Positions 821-4,110 of a stretch of DNA of 64,000 nucleotides are shown here, piece after piece (positions within the stretch are counted from its first letter, which is position 1; the number at the start of each line of letters is the position of its first letter). The DNA comes from Methylacidimicrobium fagopyrum (lineage in GTDB: Bacteria; Verrucomicrobiota; Verrucomicrobiia; Limisphaerales; UBA11358), in contig JAMFSJ010000017.1 in the NCBI GenBank assembly GCA_026225255.1, forward strand, positions 1 to 64,000. The letters run 5' to 3'. The position numbers and the translations under genes are program-made. The notes beneath the pieces are model-generated. The model ran no database searches. It worked only from the letters and a program-made list of their open reading frames with translations, and was not told where the DNA came from.

Positions 821-853
821 AACAAAAAACCCACAGCCGTTTCCAGCCGTGGG
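821..853 (-). terminator. Intrinsic terminator (attenuator) of the ilvB leader
   Basis: On the minus strand CCCACGGCTG (853-844), a GAAA tetraloop (843-840) and CGGCTGTGGG (839-830) form a 10-bp stem with two G-U wobbles. The run TTTTTTGTT (829-821) follows directly. The wobbles pair only in minus-strand RNA, which fixes the direction. The 5' arm is shared with an alternative antiterminator: minus-strand 889-874 (GCCGTCGGTGCTTGTT) can pair with 861-846 (AACAAGAACCCACGGC) at 14 of 16 positions. That is the classic mutually exclusive 2:3 versus 3:4 arrangement of amino-acid attenuators. Confidence 0.85.
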
Positions 854-871
854 TTCTTGTTAAATTTTTGA

Positions 872-943
872 TCAACAAGCACCGACGGCGTCGCTTACTA
901 CGACGACCAGCAGGATGACAGCTTGTGATACGTTTTTCAACAT
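872..943 (-). CDS. ilvB leader peptide, 23 aa, rich in Val/Leu/Ile
   Basis: A short reading frame ATG (943-941) to TGA (874-872). It begins MLKN and ends AVILLVVVVSDAVGAC; 11 of 23 residues are branched-chain amino acids, with an uninterrupted Ile-Leu-Leu-Val-Val-Val-Val block at residues 10-16. Its last six codons are the first arm of the antiterminator. A ribosome stalled on the Val block would therefore free that arm and allow read-through, while one reaching the stop codon would cover it and allow termination. This matches ivbL/ilvL-type leader peptides in logic, though no sequence relationship is claimed. No Shine-Dalgarno is present just upstream (CTCCTCA), so initiation may be leaderless or weak. 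Confidence 0.8.
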   Translation of the reverse strand: MLKNVSQAVILLVVVVSDAVGAC

Positions 944-952
944 TGAGGAGAT

Positions 953-981
953 AAATTATGATTTGAGGTGAAAACGGTCAA
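953..981 (-). promoter_or_regulatory. Candidate promoter of the ilvB leader
   Basis: Read on the minus strand, TTGACC (981-976) and TAATTT (958-953) are separated by 17 nt, a fair match to a housekeeping -35/-10 pair. Transcription would begin near 946, only a few bases before the leader ATG at 943, which would make the leader peptide almost leaderless. A more distant promoter inside the next gene cannot be excluded. Confidence 0.4.
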
Positions 982-2620: not shown

Positions 2621-3991
2621 GTGGAAACACCTCCGATTCTGAAGGCCGAAACCAATCGTCACACCCATCCGCCTCAATCTAAACGCAAGGGACGCGGTAA
2701 ACTCATTGTCGCCGCCATCCTTATTCTCGTCGTGCTCGCGCTGATGATGTTCTTTGCGCTGCACAAAAAAGAACCCGTGATCTCCGTGCAGACGGAAAAA
2801 GTTTCGCGCCGCACCATCACGGAAACCGTCATCGCGAATGGTAAAATTTATCCGGTCACGCAAGTTCACATCAGCCCGGAAGTCAGCGGCGAAATCATCG
2901 TCCTCGCCGTCAAGGAAGGCCAGTTCGTGCACAAGGGCGATTTGCTGTTGAAGATCAATCCCGACCTTTACACCGCCGGCGTTAACCAAGCGAAGGCGAA
3001 TTACGAATCGTCCGTCGCCGCCAAAACTACCGCCGTGGCGAACCTCGAAAAAGCGGACACCGATTTCGCGCGCAACGAAAAATTGTTCAACCGCAACCTG
3101 CTTTCCGAATCCGATTTCATCGGCTTCAAAGTCGCCCGTGATGTCGCCAAGGCGAATGTTAAAAGTGCGGAAGATCAAATGGACGTCGCCAAGGCCAACG
3201 TCGATAGCGCGCAAGATTCATTGAATAAAACCACGATCGTTTCGCCGCTGGATGGCACGATCACGACGCTTAATTCGCAGCTCGGCGAACGCGTGCTCGG
3301 CACGGTGCAGAACGCGGGCACGGACATCATGATCATCTCGGATTTGAGCGCGATCGAAGCGCGCGTGGACATCGGCGAGATGGACATCGTGCTGTTGAAA
3401 CCCGGCCAAGCCGCCCTGCTCGAAGTGGATTCGTTCAAGGATAAAAAATTCAAAGGCACCGTCACCGCCGTCGGCAATTCCGCGGAAGGACTTGATGCTG
3501 CTTCTGCGCTGGGCGGCTCGGCCAGTTCGACCGGTCAATCCGCGACGCAATTTCAAGTCCGCATTCTCTTCAACGATCAGGAGCAATTTCGTCCCGGCAT
3601 GTCGGTCACCGCGACGATTGAAACCCGCACGCGCACCAATACGCTCGCCGTGCCCATCGCCAGTGTCACCACGCGCGTGGTGAAAAATAAAATGGACGCA
3701 GTAAAAACCAATTCGGTCGCGAGCAATACGAATTCAATGCTCACGAATTCCTTCGCGTCCCTGAGCAACGGAACCAACAAGCCGGTGGATGTGGTTTTCG
3801 TCGTTGAAAAAAATCACGCCAAAACGACGCCGGTGAAAATCGGGATCAGCGACGATAATTTTTGGGAGATCACCGACGGCTTGAAAGAAGGCCAGGAAAT
3901 CGTGACCGGCAGTTACCAAGCCATCAGCCGCGATCTTGATGACGGCAAAAAAATCGTCACCGGCACGTCGGAAACGGAAACCAATAAATAA
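2621..3991 (+). CDS. MacA-like periplasmic adaptor (HlyD/RND membrane-fusion protein)
   Basis: Adaptor subunit of a MacAB-type tripartite exporter, 456 aa, GTG start. One N-terminal membrane anchor (about residues 28-48, LIVAAILILVVLALMMFFAL) is followed by a lipoyl/barrel-sandwich half (PEVSGEIIVLAVKEGQFVHKGD), an alpha-helical hairpin (about 120-205, Ala/Lys-rich with repeated AKANV), the second lipoyl half (STVSPLDGTI-like SPLDGTITTLNSQLGERV) and beta-barrel and membrane-proximal domains. A Ser/Asn/Thr-rich insert near residues 345-390 is unusual. It is first in an operon with an ATPase and two permeases. The cargo cannot be inferred; no TolC-like gene is in the window. Confidence 0.85.
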   Translation: METPPILKAETNRHTHPPQSKRKGRGKLIVAAILILVVLALMMFFALHKKEPVISVQTEKVSRRTITETVIANGKIYPVTQVHISPEVSGEIIVLAVKEGQFVHKGDLLLKINPDLYTAGVNQAKANYESSVAAKTTAVANLEKADTDFARNEKLFNRNLLSESDFIGFKVARDVAKANVKSAEDQMDVAKANVDSAQDSLNKTTIVSPLDGTITTLNSQLGERVLGTVQNAGTDIMIISDLSAIEARVDIGEMDIVLLKPGQAALLEVDSFKDKKFKGTVTAVGNSAEGLDAASALGGSASSTGQSATQFQVRILFNDQEQFRPGMSVTATIETRTRTNTLAVPIASVTTRVVKNKMDAVKTNSVASNTNSMLTNSFASLSNGTNKPVDVVFVVEKNHAKTTPVKIGISDDNFWEITDGLKEGQEIVTGSYQAISRDLDDGKKIVTGTSETETNK

Positions 3992-3997
3992 CCACGT

Positions 3998-4110
3998 GGA
4001 TGAATGGATTGGTGGATAAATGGATTTTTGGCGGGGCGGCAAAACAACGTGCTGCCGGCAGCACGTTGGTATTCGCGCCCCAACCATCAATCCAAAAATC
4101 CATTCATCCA
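3998..4110. repeat. Long palindromic repeat between adaptor and ATPase genes
   Basis: The ends TGGATGAATGGATT (3998-4011) and AATCCATTCATCCA (4097-4110) are exact reverse complements. Further inside lie TGGATTTTTGG and CCAAAAATCC, and at the centre a perfect 22-nt palindrome (4046-4067, AACGTGCTGCC/GGCAGCACGTT). It fills the gap between two genes that are normally closely coupled and shares its outer motif with 692-788. It would form a very strong hairpin in the operon transcript. Confidence 0.6.

Follow-up and report, generated by a model that had tools for sequence, protein, structure and literature searches.

A predicted valine attenuator upstream of ilvB in an order of Verrucomicrobia, with a leucine-rich counterpart at leuA

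A short reading frame rich in branched-chain amino acid (BCAA) codons and a hairpin precede ilvB, the gene for the large subunit of acetolactate synthase, in Methylacidimicrobium fagopyrum, and raise the question of whether ribosome-mediated attenuation controls the gene. The window analysed here, a stretch of 64,000 nucleotides, starts at the first base of its contig (JAMFSJ010000017.1), which cuts ilvB short; as the protein is partial, its match to TIGR00118 falls under the whole-protein cut-off. The neighbouring upstream gene, encoding a Gfo/Idh/MocA oxidoreductase, is divergent, so the terminator in front of ilvB serves no upstream gene. Our reading of the sequence is that the ilvB leader is very probably a ribosome-mediated transcription attenuator, predicted to couple ilvB, by ribosome stalling, to the supply of charged tRNA for valine (and isoleucine and leucine).

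Direct reading of the minus strand from 943 to 872 gives an ATG-to-TGA frame of 23 residues, 11 of them isoleucine, leucine or valine, as an earlier note on this DNA had stated; a short ORF so rich in end-product codons is what a putative attenuator leader would be expected to carry. The antiterminator joins 889–874 to 861–846 with 14 standard pairs in 16 positions, the figure that the note had given, the mismatches being 884:851 (C-C) and 880:855 (G-A), and two more pairs, 873:862 (G-U) and 872:863 (A-U), lengthen it to 18 positions. In the terminator all 11 positions of 854–844 pair with 839–829, two of them as G-U wobbles, around a GAAA loop and before a run of six uridines (829–824). Leader, antiterminator, terminator and ilvB follow one another on the minus strand as claimed, with the intrinsic terminator between leader and gene. 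Refolding of minus-strand 943–815, which the note had suggested, gave a minimum free energy (MFE) of −49.5 kcal/mol (z −4.7); 894–840 folds as the antiterminator (−22.0), and the folds of 894–815 (−32.0) and 873–815 (−27.0) contain the terminator. The features are collected in Table 1.

Table 1. Coordinates of the ilvB leader elements in the window and of the related element at leuA
Feature	Position	Strand	Basis
−35 box TTGACC of the predicted leader promoter	976..981	minus	TTGAC 35–41 nt 5′ of leader start in 81/84 loci
−10 box TAATTT, 17-nt spacer	953..958	minus	TANNNT at 15–19 nt spacing in 67/83 loci
Leader peptide ORF MLKNVSQAVILLVVVVSDAVGAC, ATG to TGA	872..943	minus	readable leader in 42/43 genus loci
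Region 1 (protector arm), pairs with 880–876 and 874–872 in nascent RNA	921..928	minus	MFE of nascent RNA; weak support across loci
Regulatory Ile/Leu/Val codons 10–16 of the leader	916–896	minus	
Region 2, antiterminator 5′ arm, overlaps final leader codons and stop	872..889	minus	pairing and covariation
Region 3, antiterminator 3′ arm; holds most of the terminator 5′ arm (854–844)	846..863	minus	pairing and covariation
Region 4, terminator 3′ arm	829..839	minus	11 bp hairpin, GAAA loop
Terminator U-run, T6 then GTT to 821	824..829	minus	direct reading
ilvB, acetolactate synthase large subunit, cut by contig end	2..688	minus	best NCBIfam match TIGR00118, E 8.4e-78
leuA attenuator (own genome, contig C19)	about 90360–90540	plus	R1 match; further places L159 about 2380–2560 and L194–L220 (own genome and relatives)

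An ilvB-like match was found in 46 of the 49 genomes of the genus, and 43 orthologues with upstream DNA, the window's own genome among them, made up the genus set; the six remaining genomes had no match, distant paralogues only or a 5′-truncated copy. Region 2 and the terminator are kept in all 43 loci, and the leader is open in 42, the exception (L009) being cut by a contig end inside the leader, so the loss of the frame in close relatives, which the earlier note had named as a sign against its reading, is not seen. The ATG was sought in frame with the stop, and the open frame is thus partly due to the choice of start; from ATG to stop the leaders span 21–24 codons, once 28. Alignment gaps within the leader measure 3, 6 or 15 columns, all multiples of three, except for one of 28 columns in the divergent L024 and L025, which start four columns earlier, whilst gaps in the linker past the leader stop measure 1, 3, 4 and 5 columns. 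When 39 leaders (L024, L025 and L035 left out) are compared pair by pair, codons that differ at a single base number 4696, and in 2770 of them the change is at the third position; this count describes and does not test, as related sequences are not independent.

Both helices are supported by covariation across 84 distinct loci, a set from which 13 identical loci and a reverse-strand pick of L046 had been removed and whose alignments exclude L009. The terminator is paired in 99.1% of 920 cells and the antiterminator in 79.1% of 1508, where 41 cells changed on both sides compare with 19.8 in shuffles, none of 500 shuffles reaching as many. For both pairings the number of paired cells, the double-changed cells and the covariation score lie above every one of the 500 shuffles; the count of pairs changed on both sides is not outstanding (matched by 44 of 500 shuffles for the terminator and 94 for the antiterminator), and for pair types one slid version ties. 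At 874:861 a U-A pair in 38 loci is replaced by C-G in 24; at 850:833 in the terminator stem A-U becomes G-C in four loci, at 885:850 in the antiterminator U-A becomes C-G in four, and both changes occur in two (L035 and L041). The alternating pairings, whose loss in relatives would equally have counted against the earlier reading, thus persist with compensatory changes. The duplex of regions 2 and 3 averages −21.3 kcal/mol, against −12.3 with region 2 shuffled and −19.8 with region 3 from another locus; 33% of the swapped partners are better than the locus's own, and the swapped duplex is nearly as good because both arms are highly conserved.

Could the leader instead encode a small functional protein, with the hairpin as its own terminator and ilvB transcribed from a separate promoter further downstream? 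Conservation of the peptide within the genus is good and extends to its C-terminal DAVGAC, and the 183 nucleotides from leader stop to ilvB in the window offer space for such a promoter. However, the conserved C-terminal codons themselves form the antiterminator arm, and outside the genus the remainder of the peptide varies while the pairings are retained. That distance, moreover, shrinks to 78–95 nucleotides in 33 of the 43 genus loci (134–199 in the other 10), and the leaders at leuA, considered below, bear leucine in place of valine. We therefore hold the small-protein explanation to be highly improbable.

Upstream of the leader a TTGAC box lies at the distance given in Table 1 in all but three of the 84 loci, at 45 nucleotides in two more and nowhere in one (L024, left out of the promoter counts that follow); in this count the choice of start codon depended in part on how far it lay from TTGAC, and the same genus starts had been found earlier without that rule. 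A −10-like box at 15–19 nucleotides scores 4.15 as against 2.33 in shuffled spacers, although 16 of the 83 predicted boxes do not fit TANNNT. The predicted transcription start falls near 946 in the window, about three nucleotides before the ATG, and the predicted 5′ UTR is 0–5 nucleotides long in 77 of 83 loci, with a tetramer resembling a Shine-Dalgarno sequence in only three. Since transcription is predicted to begin so close to the AUG, and no Shine-Dalgarno sequence precedes it, the leader mRNA is probably leaderless.

A riboswitch or T-box might in principle govern the terminator in place of a translated leader, as those elements, too, typically have a structured 5′ region that includes a terminator and an antiterminator, and some ilvB genes are preceded by ppGpp riboswitches (PMC10272879). 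This is very improbable here: at gathering scores the only Rfam match in the whole window is a tRNA, no Rfam 15 family, T-box and riboswitches included, reaches its gathering score in the ilvB leader, and a permissive search of 700–1020 returned nothing above gathering, the best being His_leader at 26 of 49 bits. The differences among loci are also codon-like, and the RNA 5′ of region 3 is almost all leader ORF. A predicted attenuator would account for a 23-codon frame and a hairpin that are matched in the great majority of the genomes sampled in the order and that no Rfam 15 family covers at its gathering score in the window.

That a chance ORF lies beside a genuine terminator can be dismissed as next to impossible, as leader, pairings and promoter spacing are conserved in many relatives, even if shuffled windows give 0.45 loose matches per 64 kb. 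That rate comes from 20 shuffled versions of the window with dinucleotide content roughly kept, none of which held a match that also had an antiterminator of −15 or lower and a TTGAC box; when the real window was searched on both strands for a terminator preceded by a BCAA-rich ORF, the ilvB leader unit was the single match.

How widely is the element spread? Among the best 80 ilvB loci of a scan of named genomes, a motif search found the core in 56 and failed to find it in 24. Of the latter, 21 (L104–L107 and L109–L125) are titled Opitutae, Opitutales, Opitutaceae, Opitutia, Victivallales or just Verrucomicrobia, -iia or -iota, and the other three (L081, L098 and L100) have their upstream DNA cut off or a variant element. 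Carriers of the core are titled Limisphaerales (L082, L085), Limisphaera (L094) and Pedosphaera (L080), the others Verrucomicrobiales or otherwise, and the three closest named neighbours of this ilvB are titled 'uncultured Verrucomicrobia subdivision 3 bacterium', in keeping with the verrucomicrobial origin that had been guessed from the sequence. From these titles we take the order itself to be Limisphaerales. Seven bins with a window-like ilvB (69–87% identity) and the attenuator core are titled Akkermansia muciniphila (L065, L071, L076, L086, L092), Acidobacteria (L062) or Omnitrophota (L093), and these titles are probably wrong.

A covariance model, R1, built from the 84 distinct loci matched 279 of 293 genomes sampled from the order, 113 of 118 genera and 151 of 153 good genomes at E ≤ 0.01, and by hand count 249 of the 293 at 1e-6 or better, where many of the genomes supplied sequences to the model and matches were counted irrespective of their position relative to ilvB, so that the weakest could represent leuA elements or terminators. 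In the phylum sample the model reached E ≤ 0.001 in 27 of 288 genomes; leaving aside the window's own, the count is 26 of 287, with a best match at 1.9e-8. Among eight R1 places outside the order, two (L190 and L192) are BCAA leaders 5′ of an ilvB relative of 51–52% identity, three (L187, L188 and L191) have a terminator with no BCAA-rich ORF, and three (L186, L189 and L193) offer a poor candidate only. Some leaders are poor in isoleucine, leucine and valine, namely L035 (5 of 28 residues), L065 and L067–L070 (5 of 25), L073 and L075 (5 of 22) and L071 (6 of 26). We rejected the weak matches on contigs C26, C39 and C74 of the window's own genome, which by eye look like hairpins 3′ of genes that have no BCAA leader.

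Elsewhere in the phylum the region 5′ of ilvB takes other forms. Three genomes from a single genus in another family (L252–L254) have two leader and terminator units in tandem upstream of ilvB, the first leader holding more valine and the second more isoleucine in all three alike, and the minus strand of L190 is also listed with them; such an arrangement could act as a gate for two amino acids. Single BCAA-rich leaders with terminators of other sequence lie 5′ of ilvB in further members of the phylum (L255–L262, and L123 at about 2799–2950), one of them titled Victivallales. In 13 of the 24 loci of the other family the BCAA leader is absent or doubtful.

The second-best R1 match in the window's own genome (34.6 bits, the next being 25.0) lies 5′ of leuA, identified by a match to TIGR00970 above the cut-off. 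Its leader, MKQNLNLLLTNALLTSAAVGF, starts with GTG and has TTGACC 36 nucleotides upstream, and the terminator arms are AACCCACTGCC/GGCGGTGGGTT. A leuA of the TIGR00970 type occurs in 27 of 57 sampled genomes of the order, and all 27 loci have a leader candidate with 4–8 leucines. On average the 27 leuA leaders hold 6.4 leucines and 1.2 valines, against 6.35 valines and 2.16 leucines in 83 ilvB leaders, where the leuA starts had been picked by a score that rewards leucine. An anchored scan with no promoter rule recovered leader and terminator at 26 of the 27 loci, missing L213, and TTGAC stands 35–39 nucleotides 5′ of the leader in 23; L204, L213 and L215 have no box, and L214 too little DNA. 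Over 25 aligned loci (L196 and L200, missed by the motif search, were left out) the terminator is paired in 96.7% and the antiterminator in 83.7% of cells, with covariation in both.

The ilvB and leuA elements share a plan: a TTGAC promoter at a fixed distance, Ala-Val-Gly codons that serve as antiterminator arm, and one kept mismatch of C with a pyrimidine. At ilvB this mismatch, 884:851, is unpaired in 63 of 84 loci, with a pyrimidine against C in 61 of those, and at leuA its counterpart is unpaired in 24 of 25, with a pyrimidine against C in 23; we infer that it stops the antiterminator from outcompeting the terminator. In both attenuators the mismatched position is the third base of the valine codon in the Ala-Val-Gly block (alignment columns 54/103 for ilvB and 36/76 for leuA). 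It is possible, although we would sooner bet against it than for it, that Verrucomicrobia of subdivision 3 (Limisphaerales-type) possess two ancient attenuators, both leaderless and lacking a Shine-Dalgarno sequence, of which the one at ilvB senses valine and the one at leuA leucine, and which may stem from one duplicated element re-coded from valine to leucine. Such a duplicated and re-coded pair would show how the amino acid specificity of an attenuator changes, and its leaderless nature would mean that coupling of transcription and translation can start at the first RNA nucleotides in this phylum. The R1 score was considered as proof that the two elements are homologous and rejected, as leuA elements score 16–35 bits and ilvB units of the other family also reach 20–35. 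The anchored scan found attenuators of like plan at none of 10 ilvD, 11 ilvC, 10 trpE and 9 hisG loci, with gene starts taken from recorded matches (10 of 14, 11 of 14, 10 of 14 and 9 of 9 loci scanned, respectively); in the window's own genome hisG has no match and ilvC is represented by its 3′ part only.

The course of events at the ilvB leader, from transcription start and translation to stalling, termination and read-through, can be proposed from its observed anatomy, conservation and covariation and from the differing codon content of ilvB and leuA leaders. Transcription would begin 0–5 nucleotides 5′ of the leader AUG, and a ribosome would load on the leaderless RNA end and trail the RNA polymerase. 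With charged tRNA plentiful, the ribosome at the stop codon would cover region 2 (889–872), the terminator (854–829) would form and the RNA would end near 821. With charged valine, isoleucine or leucine tRNA scarce, the ribosome would pause at codons 10–16 and leave region 2 free to pair with region 3, so that no terminator would form and ilvB would be transcribed.

This scheme was set against a footprint model in which the edge of the ribosome lies at P-site +15. With codons 8–14 in the A-site the full antiterminator can form (−20.8), with codon 15 most of it (−17.5), with codon 16 about half (−11.5); from codon 20 onwards, up to the stop, it is lost. The model and the covariation together thus predict that a ribosome waiting on the regulatory codons leaves the antiterminator arm free and that one at the stop codon covers it. 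The earlier note had placed the exposing stall at Val13–Val16; in the model this holds in full for Val13 and Val14 and in declining measure for Val15 and Val16, and stalls at Val9–Leu12 would free the arm as well. The 1:2 hairpin is the MFE structure of nascent RNA ending at 872, 866, 860 or 855, before region 3 is complete, and across loci the protector helix passes the 5% level in 20 of 81 (L024, L087 and L103 left out) where about four are expected, which points weakly to such a helix. In ribosome-free nascent RNA through 839 the antiterminator still folds (−32.1), and therefore termination without translation is not assured. We regard the stall and stop branches as well-founded predictions. 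The promoter, the missing Shine-Dalgarno sequence and the 1:2 hairpin had been overlooked in the earlier note.

Compared with known systems, the predicted mechanism has the logic of regions 1–4, the regulatory codons and the intrinsic terminator of the proteobacterial ilv, leu, his and trp attenuators. Leaders of E. coli attenuators initiate at a Shine-Dalgarno sequence, whereas 80 of the 83 loci here have no tetramer of that kind and a leaderless start is predicted. An attenuator has also been reported or proposed for the ilv leader of Caulobacter (PMC4117421). Closest in working plan, by analogy, is the Corynebacterium ilvBNC attenuator (ilvB-II motif; C. glutamicum leader MTIIRLVVVTARRLP), which like the present element has a valine-containing leader 5′ of ilvB with terminator and antiterminator (PMC11857589; PMC10272879), and whose transcription starts one nucleotide from the leader start codon and is hence leaderless (PMC11857589). 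The likeness is one of description, with no claim to membership of the ilvB-II motif: the C. glutamicum leader peptide is another, the operon is ilvBNC and the phylum differs, whilst here the gene after ilvB is unrelated in the five loci where it has a name. The ilvB1 attenuator of Mycobacterium tuberculosis shares the BCAA-rich uORF and the terminator and antiterminator at ilvB, but belongs to another phylum, has a leader of 166 nucleotides, unusually long according to its authors, and uses LVVI as regulatory codons (PMC13236596). ilvB attenuators in other Actinobacteria have been reported or proposed (PMC1262725). The ilvB-OMG and Leptospira ilvB motifs, compared by description only, have leader ORFs rich in BCAA and threonine 5′ of ilvB, for which attenuation has been proposed (PMC10272879), and come from other lineages, a mixed set for ilvB-OMG. 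His_leader (RF00514), the best weak Rfam match, at 26 bits over 822–931 with the gathering score of 49 not reached, codes for histidine where the leader here codes for valine. The actinobacterial LEU element at leuA has a run of leucines like the sister element here, but it is described as a pseudoknot with the leuA Shine-Dalgarno sequence in place of terminator and antiterminator (PMC1262725).

The earlier statement that enterobacteria and actinobacteria are the best-known hosts of such attenuators is right in part, leader-peptide attenuators having also been published for Firmicutes (PMC2965389, PMC5794164). Among the matches listed in the open-licence literature we found none that reports such an attenuator from Verrucomicrobia; the word does not appear in the accessible text of PMC2965389 and PMC4833913, and that of PMC11683593 concerns ermB only. 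The element appears to be a real, order-wide representative of a known type of attenuator, to which it would add the taxonomic extension to Verrucomicrobia, the probable leaderless start and the leuA partner. If this is correct, ribosome-mediated amino acid attenuation extends, with conservation throughout, to a verrucomicrobial order, and the leader provides, in a phylum that has been little studied, a ready assay for transcription-translation coupling that begins at a leaderless start, whilst the ilvB and leuA pair amounts to a natural experiment on swapped regulatory codons.

Downstream, ilvB looks monocistronic, with no ilvN or ilvC 3′ of it, because the following gene is unrelated in the five loci where it is named: a formyl transferase, a YHYH protein (opposite strand), a PQQ-repeat protein, a 3-keto-disaccharide hydrolase (opposite strand) and FtsK/SpoIIIE (opposite strand). 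The last lies on contig C79 of the window's own genome, which at 2–1399 (locus L045) carries the 3′ part of an ilvB; as it shares 95% protein identity with the window copy over their 64 overlapping residues, it probably comes from a variant strain, so that the assembly would mix strains. Between attenuator and ilvB, at 690–800, about 100 nucleotides of the window, able to fold (z −2.6 and −1.7), contain GGAT(G/A)AATGGAT units, and a similar piece lies at 3990–4110. With one mismatch allowed, this 12-mer, a pattern picked post hoc, has seven matches against 1.35 expected, and the stretch looks like a dispersed repeat tolerated between the attenuator and the gene.
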